Assembly (NCBI GenBank): GCA_018650795.1
Contig: JABIFG010000279.1
Coordinates: 1 to 50,610 of the forward strand
Reading direction: 5' to 3'
Source of the DNA: Fidelibacterota bacterium
GTDB lineage: Bacteria; Fidelibacterota; UBA8477; JABMPR01
Length of the DNA: 50,610 bases
Shown piece by piece: positions 3,536 to 29,070 of this stretch. The number at the start of each line of letters is the position of its first letter. Positions within the stretch are counted from its first letter, which is position 1. The notes under the pieces were generated by a model that ran no database searches, was not told the origin of the DNA, and saw nothing but the letters and a program-made list of their open reading frames with translations. The position numbers and the translations under genes were made by a program.

Positions 3536-4369
3536 ATGGATCTAGCATCAATTACCATATCAATGTTGAGCATGGGTGGCATGGGGGCTCTTTTTGCCGC
3601 AGGCTTGGCGGTAGCGAATAAGAAATTTTATGTCGAGGAAGATCCACGGATTGCCCTGGTCATAGACAATCTTCCCGGAGCCAACTGTGGAGGTTGTGGT
3701 CTACCCGGTTGTGGTAGTTTTGCTGAAAGTATCGTGCATGGGACAGTGGCCATCAGCGGTTGTCCAGTATGTAATGATGATGCCCGAGAAGCCATTGCCG
3801 GTATCATGGGTCTGGAAGCTGCCAAAGGTGAAAAGATTATAGCCCGAGTAATGTGCCAGGGTGGCGATTATGAAAGTGCTCACAAAGGTGAATATCTAGG
3901 CATTCAAAATTGTACTGCCGCCCATATTACTGGAGGGGGTGACAAGCTCTGTCTGCATGGCTGTCTTGGATATGGGGAGTGTGTTGATGCTTGTCCTTTT
4001 GACGCTATGGAAATGAGTGAAAATGGCCTACCGCTCATTGATGAAGACAAATGCACGGGCTGTGGTAATTGTGTAGATGCCTGTCCTCGGAATGTTATTG
4101 AACTCCACCCAGAAACTGACACGATTTTTGTGGCTTGCCGCAATACTGACACACCCAAAGATTCCCGAAAAGTCTGTATTAAGGCCTGTGTTGGCTGTGG
4201 TCTTTGCGTCAGGGGTGTTGAAGAAGGCTTGATGACCATGGAGAACAACTTGGCTCGGATAGACTATCATCTGTATGGCCAGGGGAAGGAGCTATCTACA
4301 ACAAAATGCTCCACCAATGCCTTGATTTTGCTGGAGTCTGTTTCTGAAGAGAAAGCTCTCAGCGCCTGA
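3536..4369 (+). CDS. rnfB: RnfB, multi-cluster ferredoxin subunit
   Basis: Electron-entry subunit of Rnf: one N-terminal membrane helix (residues about 5-27) followed by Fe-S domains in the cytoplasm. The first cluster domain has NCGGCGLPGCGSFAESI followed by a later Cys (SGCPVC). Ferredoxin motifs CLGYGECVDACPF, CTGCGNCVDACPR and KACVGCGLCVRG follow, so several [4Fe-4S] clusters are expected. Length 277 aa is in range. It is coupled to the next gene through a one-base TGATG overlap. The order C-D-G-E-A-B matches clostridial and acetogen-type rnf operons. Confidence 0.96.
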   Translation: MDLASITISMLSMGGMGALFAAGLAVANKKFYVEEDPRIALVIDNLPGANCGGCGLPGCGSFAESIVHGTVAISGCPVCNDDAREAIAGIMGLEAAKGEKIIARVMCQGGDYESAHKGEYLGIQNCTAAHITGGGDKLCLHGCLGYGECVDACPFDAMEMSENGLPLIDEDKCTGCGNCVDACPRNVIELHPETDTIFVACRNTDTPKDSRKVCIKACVGCGLCVRGVEEGLMTMENNLARIDYHLYGQGKELSTTKCSTNALILLESVSEEKALSA

Positions 4370-4803
4370 TGCTTTATAATGGTGAAACCGGATTTGTGCA
4401 AACCTCGGATGGGTCTCAGGTAACTATCCTGTTTTCTACCGGGGATGCTTGTGAGACCTGTGGTTTAAAAGTGGTCTGTGCACCAGGCAAGCAATCTGAA
4501 CGATTACTGACACTTCCTCAAGCTGGTGATTTTAAACCCGGTCAGAAAGTTCAGATTGAGGAACTGTCAAACCTGGAACTGCATCTAGCATTGATTCAGT
4601 TTGGACTGCCAATGGCAGCTTTTCTCAGCGGTTTGTTTTTGGGTTATGTCTTGCCTTTTCAGGATATATTGCCTCGTGAGTTATCCGCTTTTCTGTTTGC
4701 GTGTATGGGTCTTGGCTTAAGCTTTTTTGCAGCCCGAAGTCTTGTTCAAAAAATTGTGGATATCATCCCTGAAAAATATCTGAGGATTGTCCCTTGTGTC
4801 TGA
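4369..4803 (+). CDS. RseC/MucC-family membrane protein
   Basis: Small membrane protein of the RseC/MucC (SoxR-reducing system) family, often found next to rnf genes. The N-terminal soluble part carries cysteines in DACETCGLKVVCAPG (residues about 26-40), the family's characteristic Cys cluster. Two hydrophobic helices follow, about residues 71-94 (LIQFGLPMAAFLSGLFLGYV) and 104-124. The start ATG overlaps the rnfB stop by one base. A role in Rnf assembly or redox signalling is inferred from context only. Confidence 0.8.
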   Translation: MLYNGETGFVQTSDGSQVTILFSTGDACETCGLKVVCAPGKQSERLLTLPQAGDFKPGQKVQIEELSNLELHLALIQFGLPMAAFLSGLFLGYVLPFQDILPRELSAFLFACMGLGLSFFAARSLVQKIVDIIPEKYLRIVPCV

Positions 4804-26690: not shown

Positions 26691-27368
26691 TTACTCCGGG
26701 CTAACTATCAGATTCCGGTAGTATGCCAGGGTGGAAGAATGTAGCCAGAGGGCGATACCTCCCTCAGAATCACCTCTTTTCAGGTCATTTACAATGAGGT
26801 TTGGTTGTTGGGACTCACCCACATAGAATTTCGCCGTGGATCCAGATACTTCGATTTTGATTTTCGTCCATTCACCTGGCAGCATGTCAACATATGACTC
26901 ATATTTCTCAGGCGATTCTTTTCTTAAACGATACCAGGGAAACTCCGGATGTGAAATGTATTGCAGGGAGTGATTGCGTTGAACCTGGTTGTCAGCACGG
27001 GCATTAGTTGGACGCAGGTAAAAGCACTCATACTCATAATGTTCACCAGAGCTGACTCTGAAAGCGAGCCCAACAAAACCCCTGGCCTGAGGTATTGCAC
27101 CAGGTGCCGGCTCTCCAGACACTTCCACTTCAATTACACCGTTTTTGAATAATACATCTGGTATCATGACCAGAGTCTCGAGATCATCAGTGCCTTTGGC
27201 CGCCTTGACCTGAAGACCACTTTTGCCTTTATGTTTCATCACGCTGGCATCAACATTTACCAGTTCAACCTGATCAAGTGAATTCAGCGGAATGGTCGTT
27301 TTGACTTGTCCAATTGCTGCCGGAATGGACGCCAGAACTATTGTGAATATGATTAATCTCTTGATCAT
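26691..27368 (-). CDS. Secreted LamG/DUF1080-like protein
   Basis: A 225-aa exported protein (signal peptide IKRLIIFTIVLASIPAAIG). The body resembles concanavalin-like folds of the DUF1080/LamG type: NGVIEVEVSGEPAP, FVGLAFRVSSGEHYECFYLRP-like strands, GEWTKIKIEVSGSTAKFYVG and GGIALWLHSSTLAYYRNLIV. It probably binds or acts on a sugar. Its ATG overlaps the second stop of the UGA-containing gene by 4 bases (ATGA), evidence that the two are translated in series. Confidence 0.7.
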   Translation of the reverse strand: MIKRLIIFTIVLASIPAAIGQVKTTIPLNSLDQVELVNVDASVMKHKGKSGLQVKAAKGTDDLETLVMIPDVLFKNGVIEVEVSGEPAPGAIPQARGFVGLAFRVSSGEHYEYECFYLRPTNARADNQVQRNHSLQYISHPEFPWYRLRKESPEKYESYVDMLPGEWTKIKIEVSGSTAKFYVGESQQPNLIVNDLKRGDSEGGIALWLHSSTLAYYRNLIVSPE

Positions 27369-27673
27369 TTGCTTGCCCTTTCTAATGCGTCTACAATCAT
27401 TTGCTCCGATGGCATACCCGATGCCCCATAGCTTCTTCAGGTGAAGCCTCCAAAGGAATCACCTCTGGCAGAGGGGTCTATATCAGAACCATTGACCCGG
27501 ACTGTGGGACTCCCTATAAAACTCCACTCTAGAATTTCTTCATAGGTATCAATTTGCACCATTGTCAAATCAATTGGTGTTTTTATTTTTTGAGAAATCT
27601 TCTGAACCCGTTCAACCGTAAGTGGCGTACGCAGGCAACCCTCTGAAAAGAGCACTTCTACCTTAATGGTCAT
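27365..27673 (-). CDS. Thioredoxin-fold protein, candidate selenoprotein (in-frame UGA)
   Basis: The frame begins MTIKVEVLFSEGC and reads to an internal TGA at 27437-27439 (codon 79). It continues in the same frame for 23 more codons, RSYGASGMPSEQMIVDALER and three more, to TGA at 27365-27367. In small thioredoxin-fold proteins of this type the codon-79 position is a conserved Cys followed by Arg-x-Tyr, and the tail PSEQMIVDAL is the normal family ending. A hairpin (GGCAT, loop CGGGT, ATGCC) lies 11-26 bases after the TGA. The extended stop overlaps the next gene as ATGA. Total 102 residues with Cys13 and Sec79 if read through. It could instead be a nonsense mutation. Confidence 0.7.
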
Positions 27674-27690: not shown

Positions 27691-29070
27691 CTAACACTCT
27701 GTGTTGCTTACAGCCAGGCCTCCCAGAGAGGTCTCCTTAAATTTTTCTGACATCTCCAGACCGGTCTGCTTCATAGCTACAAGACAGTTATCCAGTGACA
27801 TATAATGTTGTCCCGTTCCTCGTTTGGCCAATGAGGCAGCCGTATACGCCTTAATTGCTCCAAATCCATTGCGCTCTACACAGGGTACCTGCACCAATCC
27901 ATGGACAGGGTCGCAAGTCATGCCCAGGTGATGCTCCAGAGCGATTTCAGCGGCATTTTCAACCTGCTCCGTAGTGCCACCGCGAACAGCACAGAGCCCG
28001 GCAGCCGCCATGGATGAGGCGGAGCCGACTTCACCCTGACAGCCCACTTCTGCTCCAGAGATAGAGGATCTCATTTTAATGATACCACCAATGGCACTGG
28101 CTACCAGCAAAAAATCTCTGACCTGCTCCGGAGTACCGCCTTGATGGACCACGAGATAATACAAAATTGCGGGAATTACACCTGCCGCCCCATTGGTTGG
28201 GGCTGTCACCACCATATGCCCTGCAGCATTTTCCTCACTGACAGCCATGGCGTAGGCACATAGCCAATCTGTAACATTGGCGTCTTCTGGATTTTCCAGG
28301 AGTTGATCGTGGAGTTTTTTGGCTCTGCGTGAAAGGTTGAGACTACCGGGCAGGCTCCCTTCAGTTTTGAGACCATTTTCCACACTAGTTTGCATAGCTC
28401 GCCAAATATCATCCAACCCCTGTTCGAGGTCATCTTTTGAGAGATATTCACATTCATTTACATGCTTCATTGAAGCTATAGATTTGCCGCTATCTCTAGA
28501 CATCTTCAGTAAATTATGTCCAGATCCGAAAGAAAAGCGACAGACTAGGGCGGACTCCATTTCCAGTGGCGCCACGAGGTTGTCGATATCGTTCAAGTCT
28601 CTGATAAAACCACCACCGATGGAAAAGTAAGTTTCAGTGAGGAGTATCTCACCCGAATCCCCGACTAACTCAAAGATCATCCCATTGGGATGTTGTGGCA
28701 GGGTTTCATGGCGATCAAAAATAATGTCAATTGCAGGATCAAATCGGCAAGACTCCTGAGATGTGAGATAAGTTTTGGAGCTTAGCTCATCCACTAAAAC
28801 ATCCACATCAATACCAGCAAGATTCCGCGGTGAATAGTCATTAAGACCCAACATGATAGCCCTGTCTGTAGCATGTCCTTTGCCCGTATATGCCAGGGAG
28901 CCCTTAAGGGTGCACTGGACCCTCGAATTTGATTGAATTTCTACTGTTGGGATTTTTTCTAAAAAGGTTCGGGCAGCCAACATGGGACCCACGGTGTGTG
29001 AGCTGGAGGGACCAATTCCAATCTTGAAAAGGTCCAGAGCGCTGATGAACATAGGGTCTCTCATGAGCAT
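27691..29070 (-). CDS. sdaA: L-serine ammonia-lyase (iron-sulfur dependent)
   Basis: Converts L-serine to pyruvate and ammonia using a [4Fe-4S] cluster. The beta domain starts [16 protein letters not shown]; the alpha domain has [34 protein letters not shown] and [16 protein letters not shown], which supply the cluster cysteines. The two domains are in one 459-aa chain, as in E. coli SdaA/SdaB. Start: ATG 29070 is listed, but ATG 29052 (MFISALDLF) fits the family's usual N-terminus equally well. Downstream genes follow closely. Confidence 0.94.

Follow-up and report, generated by a model that had tools for sequence, protein, structure and literature searches.

A short thioredoxin-like reading frame in a genome of Candidatus Neomarinimicrobiota runs into a TGA and then stays open, in the same frame, for many more codons. 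This raises a simple question: is the TGA a stop, or is it read as selenocysteine (Sec)? The stretch of DNA that we analysed, called here the window, comprises the 50,610 nucleotides of contig JABIFG010000279.1 and belongs to an assembly of 4.42 Mb in 355 contigs that is 91% complete. A reading of the letters without database searches, hereafter the sequence-only reading, had proposed a candidate selenoprotein at this locus. Our analyses support the proposal: the protein matches a listed selenoprotein family, the genome encodes the Sec machinery, and TGA occupies the same site in seven orthologues out of seven. We put the probability that UGA is read as Sec in the gene at 27365..27673 (minus strand), making its product a selenoprotein of the already known DF family (NF049942), at about 0.93; this figure concerns selenoprotein identity and not chemistry.

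Hypothetical protein DF was predicted in Desulfosediminicola flagellatus, together with Cys homologues and a SECIS-like structure (Xiao & Zhang 2025, PMC12013277); in its available part, that report found no TGA-containing homologue among other Sec users and named no conserved domain. A later paper, in its available part, lists DF under NF049942 and names the founding D. flagellatus protein, WP_419720682.1 (Zhang and others 2026, PMC13188914). Since DF is already published and listed, it is a known family and not a new one, as the sequence-only reading had suspected, and the window gene is a well-supported further member. In the literature searched, including the available parts of PMC9312934, PMC13188914 and PMC12013277, we found no report of a Sec-containing DF protein (Sec-DF) in Candidatus Neomarinimicrobiota.

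Results

The gene and its family

On the minus strand the frame opens with the ATG at 27673, reaches the UGA at 27439-27437 and continues for 23 codons to a TGA stop at 27367-27365, at the coordinates given before; ATG 27682 and GTG 27697 are alternative in-frame starts. Truncation at the UGA would give a product of 78 aa and read-through one of 102 aa. The codon at 27437..27439 falls where the family has an invariant Cys and is the proposed Sec79. The terminal TGA shares bases with the start codon of the downstream gene (ATG 27368), giving ATGA; with truncation at the UGA a gap of 68 bases would be left. Both points agree with the earlier description. That downstream gene (26691..27368, minus strand) has a sub-threshold match to the 3-keto-disaccharide hydrolase model PF06439 (21.2 bits, cut-off 26.8). 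Open tails are common in this DNA: the window has 125 TGA-ended frames of 60 codons or more, and in 66 of them at least 15 codons follow the TGA. Nine greedy frames other than DF end in TGA and stay open for 12 codons or more beyond it. We scanned three of these nine against NCBIfam with their tails included; one had no match and the matches of the other two end before the tail.

Against the NCBIfam model NF049942, "DF family (seleno)protein", the read-through protein scores 91.6 bits, above the cut-off of 70, and covers positions 1-96 of 96. The part before the UGA scores 69.2 bits by itself, so that the tail contributes about 22 bits. In an alignment of 13 members (A1) the site of the UGA is occupied by UGA in seven and by Cys in six, and by no other residue; a second alignment (A2) adds three Cys forms. 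The Cys-Arg-x-Tyr motif that the sequence-only reading had ascribed to relatives is thus there, and the homologues, which it had wanted checked for other sense codons, have none at this site except Cys. Within A1 the Arg-x-Tyr that directly follows is invariant, and the tail contains the family-invariant C/U-R-x-Y and P positions. The other invariant Cys of both alignments, Cys13, is encoded at 27635..27637 (minus strand) and stands alone, with no CxxC.

Pfam gave sub-threshold matches only, to Thioredoxin_3 (PF13192; 20.6 bits, cut-off 24.8) and DUF2703. The available part of one survey places the thioredoxin-like selenoproteins Sec.1 and Sec.2 under Thioredoxin_3, with motifs CxU or UxC (PMC13188914). 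These proteins share a thioredoxin-type fold and a small size with the window's DF, which differs in having a single N-terminal Cys (GCLRT) and its Sec 66 residues later. It differs likewise from thioredoxin proper, whose CxxC is replaced by GCLRT, with one Cys at the active-site position. With the published DF family it has in common the whole-length match, Sec at a Cys site and a SECIS-like structure just past the UGA.

Distribution and selection

Among 60 genomes, i.e. the window's own and 59 relatives, the DF protein was found in seven: its own and six of 18 congeners. All seven orthologues have one internal TGA at the identical codon, and never TAA or TAG; the other six are 46-79% identical in protein to the one in the window. 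In a search of 245 genomes of the phylum with NF049942, nine had a match at E 0.001 and eight exceeded the cut-off; these eight are the seven TGA carriers and one genome (G011) with a Cys-form DF. Immediately upstream of the latter (L034, G011:C290) is a frame for a SelL-related redox protein, at 68.8 bits below the cut-off of 120. Two further loci match the DF model weakly: in G015 a small thioredoxin-like stretch is fused to a permease-like frame (L036, 451 aa), and in G011 such a stretch stands beside a permease-like frame (L037, 87 and 341 aa).

The 74 codons that precede the UGA have a pN/pS of 0.354, summed over pairs of the seven, and the 20 that follow it one of 0.269; without the divergent copy of G015 these values become 0.228 and 0.192. 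Like the invariance and codon-conservation statistics below, these are counts made without a tree. Because pN/pS is low there, the tail past the UGA evolves as protein. At the level of sequence and comparison, the reading frame, the protein-level selection on its tail, the membership in the family and the equivalence of UGA and Cys are established.

Outside the phylum, we sampled plasmids and viral contigs and ran a single scan of genome contigs. The scan returned two loci, JABIFX010000104.1 and JAERTG010000026.1, both from Candidatus Neomarinimicrobiota and matching two of the six orthologues in congeners. In viral contigs, a degenerate DNA pattern for the Sec form had no matches, and a profile search found three DF loci, all of them Cys forms. 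The DF proteins of actinobacterial plasmids share the Cys13 and CRxY columns with the window's protein, but carry Cys instead of Sec, and four of five have 4-5 extra residues between CRxY and GxP. Four were scanned against NF049942 (cut-off 70), scoring 105 (L038), 70.4 (L039), 66.2 (L040) and 52.2 bits (L041).

The SECIS-like hairpin

A hairpin with stem GGCAT/ATGCC and loop CGGGT lies past the UGA, at 27411..27425 (minus strand). The sequence-only reading had its letters right and its position slightly wrong, since it spans bases 12-26 past the UGA and not 11-26. Published rules for bacterial SECIS elements (bSECIS), in the available part of PMC13188914, ask for a loop of 3-9 nt, a stem of 4-16 bp, a G in the first two loop positions, a spacing of 16-37 nt and an energy at or below -7.5 kcal/mol. 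The hairpin conforms to this geometry, as had been claimed: loop 5, stem 5, loop start CG, and a loop that begins after 16 nt, which is the lower limit of the spacing. Its energy is -10.5 kcal/mol in a slice of 42 nt, against -4.2 for the bare hairpin. One of the seven orthologues, at -6.8 in the 42-nt slice, falls short of the limit. The hairpin is part of the predicted fold in all seven when slices of 42 nt are folded, and in three of seven with slices of 60 nt, where other folds win in the remaining four.

How much does such a hairpin say? In the window, a hairpin of bSECIS geometry that is at least as stable follows 12 of the 125 TGA-ended frames considered above, the candidate included, and 9.5% of the 2295 TGA triplets. 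In a single sequence this is chance level; we rejected the hairpin as stand-alone proof of Sec, and the sequence-only reading gave it too much weight as an argument of its own. A search of the whole window against Rfam gave no match at gathering thresholds, which we take as uninformative.

The comparison of genomes says more. In the 20-nt segment at 27411..27430 (minus strand), 19 of 20 columns are invariant in the seven genomes, and the longest invariant run over the hairpin segment is 14 nt, while no other run in the DF gene exceeds 5 nt. Among degenerate codons with an invariant amino acid, a single codon is used in all seven genomes at four of eight positions from +1 to +10; ahead of the UGA this holds for two of 20. 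Among the conserved codons are GGG and TCG, which eight neighbouring genes use less than any other codon for Gly and Ser. When codons were drawn from the usage of these neighbours the observed conservation was reached 0 times in 20,000, under a null that ignores shared ancestry. A control on sdaA, a more conserved gene in the same seven genomes, tempers this contrast: 1 of 267 five-codon windows equals the synonymous conservation of DF, one invariant run of 14 nt occurs, and 2 of 1343 windows of 20 nt have at least 19 invariant columns. When the comparison is limited to the six closest genomes, 4 of 321 sdaA windows of five codons equal the DF value, which is then only moderately unusual. Because a few sdaA windows match it, the constraint on the hairpin DNA is unusual but not unique. 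This conservation is better evidence for a SECIS element than the hairpin by itself. The evidence that rises above chance is comparative: TGA in all seven orthologues, low pN/pS past the UGA and near-invariant DNA under the hairpin.

Selenocysteine machinery

Absence of selA, selB, selC or selD had been named as a result that would count against a selenoprotein, and all four are in the window's genome. The tRNA-Sec scores 72 bits and is called as such by ARAGORN, with anticodon UCA; selA (507 bits) and selB (346 bits) share a contig. The selD gene (371 bits; L014, G000:C120:52678-53601) has an internal TGA of its own, in the stretch AAG*AGK, where SelD proteins have Sec or Cys. Given this in-frame TGA, SelD is probably a selenoprotein as well.

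Of the 19 congeneric genomes, 17 gave a tRNA-Sec match at E 1e-9 (missed in G005 and G011) and 18 a selA match (missed in G013). The seven Sec-DF carriers all have tRNA-Sec and six have selA; the exception is again G013, an 86% complete genome in which selA was not found. Sec use looks widespread in the phylum, since selA lies above the cut-off in 175 of its 245 genomes.

Genomic neighbourhood

Upstream of DF, and 17 nt before its ATG, ends sdaA (27691..29070, minus strand), encoding an iron-sulfur L-serine ammonia-lyase (TIGR00720, 529.6 bits, cut-off 345.1). Among the 19 genomes of the genus, sdaA was found at E 1e-50 in eight, which are the eight DF genomes. DF directly follows sdaA in five (G000, G004, G009, G010 and G018). 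In G013 some 0.9 kb separates the two, taken up by a frame of 278 codons and then a brief repeat of the end of sdaA, a layout that an insertion duplicating the sdaA-DF junction might have left; the repeated end reads SNTER where the first has SNTEC (L020, L044; G013:C184:10104-11003). In G015 and G011 DF and sdaA are on different contigs, and by-eye comparison shows that in G015 a gene like the window's downstream gene directly follows sdaA, with no DF there. In a SelA tree, from which G013 and G014 are absent, seven DF carriers fall in one supported group of ten; in the three non-carriers of this group (G006, G007 and G012) we found neither DF nor sdaA. Linkage and shared ancestry may account for much of the co-occurrence of DF and sdaA.

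Could DF serve its neighbour? Sec-DF might be a dedicated partner of the adjacent SdaA, e.g. by keeping reduced, or freeing, the C-terminal Cys, which serves as a cluster ligand in the Legionella enzyme. The two genes occur in the same eight of 19 genomes, with five direct linkages and a near one, and the full SdaA ends in Cys in all eight. Against this, the genes are on separate contigs in G011 and G015, and the DF of G011 is a Cys form. According to the available part of PMC12647591, it is this residue that provides the fourth ligand to the [4Fe-4S] cluster of the Legionella protein; since it is present there too, the C-terminal Cys needs no DF to explain it. We regard such a partnership as improbable.

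Elsewhere in the window, the frame at 10336-10617 matches the CcmL and EutN models of microcompartment vertex proteins below their cut-offs, and may on that account be a microcompartment gene. The frame at 4348-4803 weakly resembles the SoxR-reducing system protein RseC (26.6 bits against a cut-off of 184).

Predicted fold

AlphaFold2 (six sequences) predicts a thioredoxin-like fold with a mean pLDDT of 85.7 and a pTM of 0.80. Confidence is lowest at residues 71-80 (64) and 81-90 (74), the region that includes Sec79. The top match in Foldseek is a thioredoxin y1 complex (TM 0.53), the sole one at E <0.001; the further matches are mostly thioredoxins, with SelW at rank 13 of the first 20. Searched by sequence, the PDB gave weak thioredoxin matches only, the best at E 0.023.

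Discussion

We showed that a small gene of Candidatus Neomarinimicrobiota has the marks of a DF-family selenoprotein. SelB would deliver the Sec-tRNA at the UGA through the hairpin, and the 102-aa read-through product would be made. It may be asked whether the UGA could not simply be a true stop, the gene making a 78-aa protein and the downstream frame and hairpin being there by chance. Tails of 15 codons or more are indeed common in the window, comparable hairpins follow other frames, and the truncated form still comes close to the cut-off of NF049942. But the tail holds the family-invariant C/U-R-x-Y and P and has a pN/pS of 0.269, and the codon is TGA in seven orthologues of seven, with TAA and TAG in none; we consider this reading very improbable. 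Naturally, Cys and TGA codons are one base apart and the assembly is fragmented, so that a Cys codon turned into TGA by sequencing error, or in a decaying gene, might be suspected. The sequence-only reading had raised the point against itself. Yet separate genomes carry the identical UGA, which disfavours such an error: six genomes besides the window's, at the levels of protein identity given above, have the same TGA, with selection on both sides of it. These seven genomes refute the idea unless all share one error, and we give it almost no weight. We are equally unconvinced that this lineage has reassigned UGA to some other amino acid. The open frame would agree with reassignment and nothing more would, whereas TGA ends 16 of the 51 greedy frames of at least 120 codons in the window, tRNA-Sec (UCA), selA, selB and selD are all present, and the six non-UGA members of A1 all have Cys at the site.

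If DF is a selenoprotein, what does its Sec do? The protein has a lone N-terminal Cys13 at the usual thioredoxin site and would have Sec79 in the C-terminal Cys-Arg-x-Tyr motif, where Sec takes the place of Cys; the two may act together as a two-residue centre. A selenenylsulfide/thiol redox pair of Cys13 and Sec79 is to our mind the likeliest chemistry, and we would give it roughly even odds. A different use of the same pair in a DF selenoprotein, binding of soft metals or metalloids such as mercury and arsenic instead of redox work, is a possibility that we hold tentatively and favour less. It would fit the surroundings of the plasmid forms: all five plasmid records examined, out of 26 matching, have a MerR, ArsR or heavy-metal-responsive regulator near DF, with an alkylmercury or organomercurial lyase beside it or fused to it in three, arsenate reductases in one and a copper ATPase in one. 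But plasmids are a biased sample where metal resistance is concerned, these five are only part of the matching records, and the DF of the window adjoins a gene for L-serine ammonia-lyase.

Standard gene calling would cut DF at the UGA, and the residue that probably carries its chemistry would be lost. Relative to the published D. flagellatus Sec-DF, with which we compare by description, the proteins described here belong to a genus of Candidatus Neomarinimicrobiota and lie downstream of sdaA in six genomes. This places Sec-DF in a second lineage, where seven genomes conserve its putative SECIS segment and where an sdaA neighbourhood occurs. A lone desulfobacterial prediction of Sec-DF has thus become a comparative case, and sdaA provides a neighbourhood lead on the function of the family.
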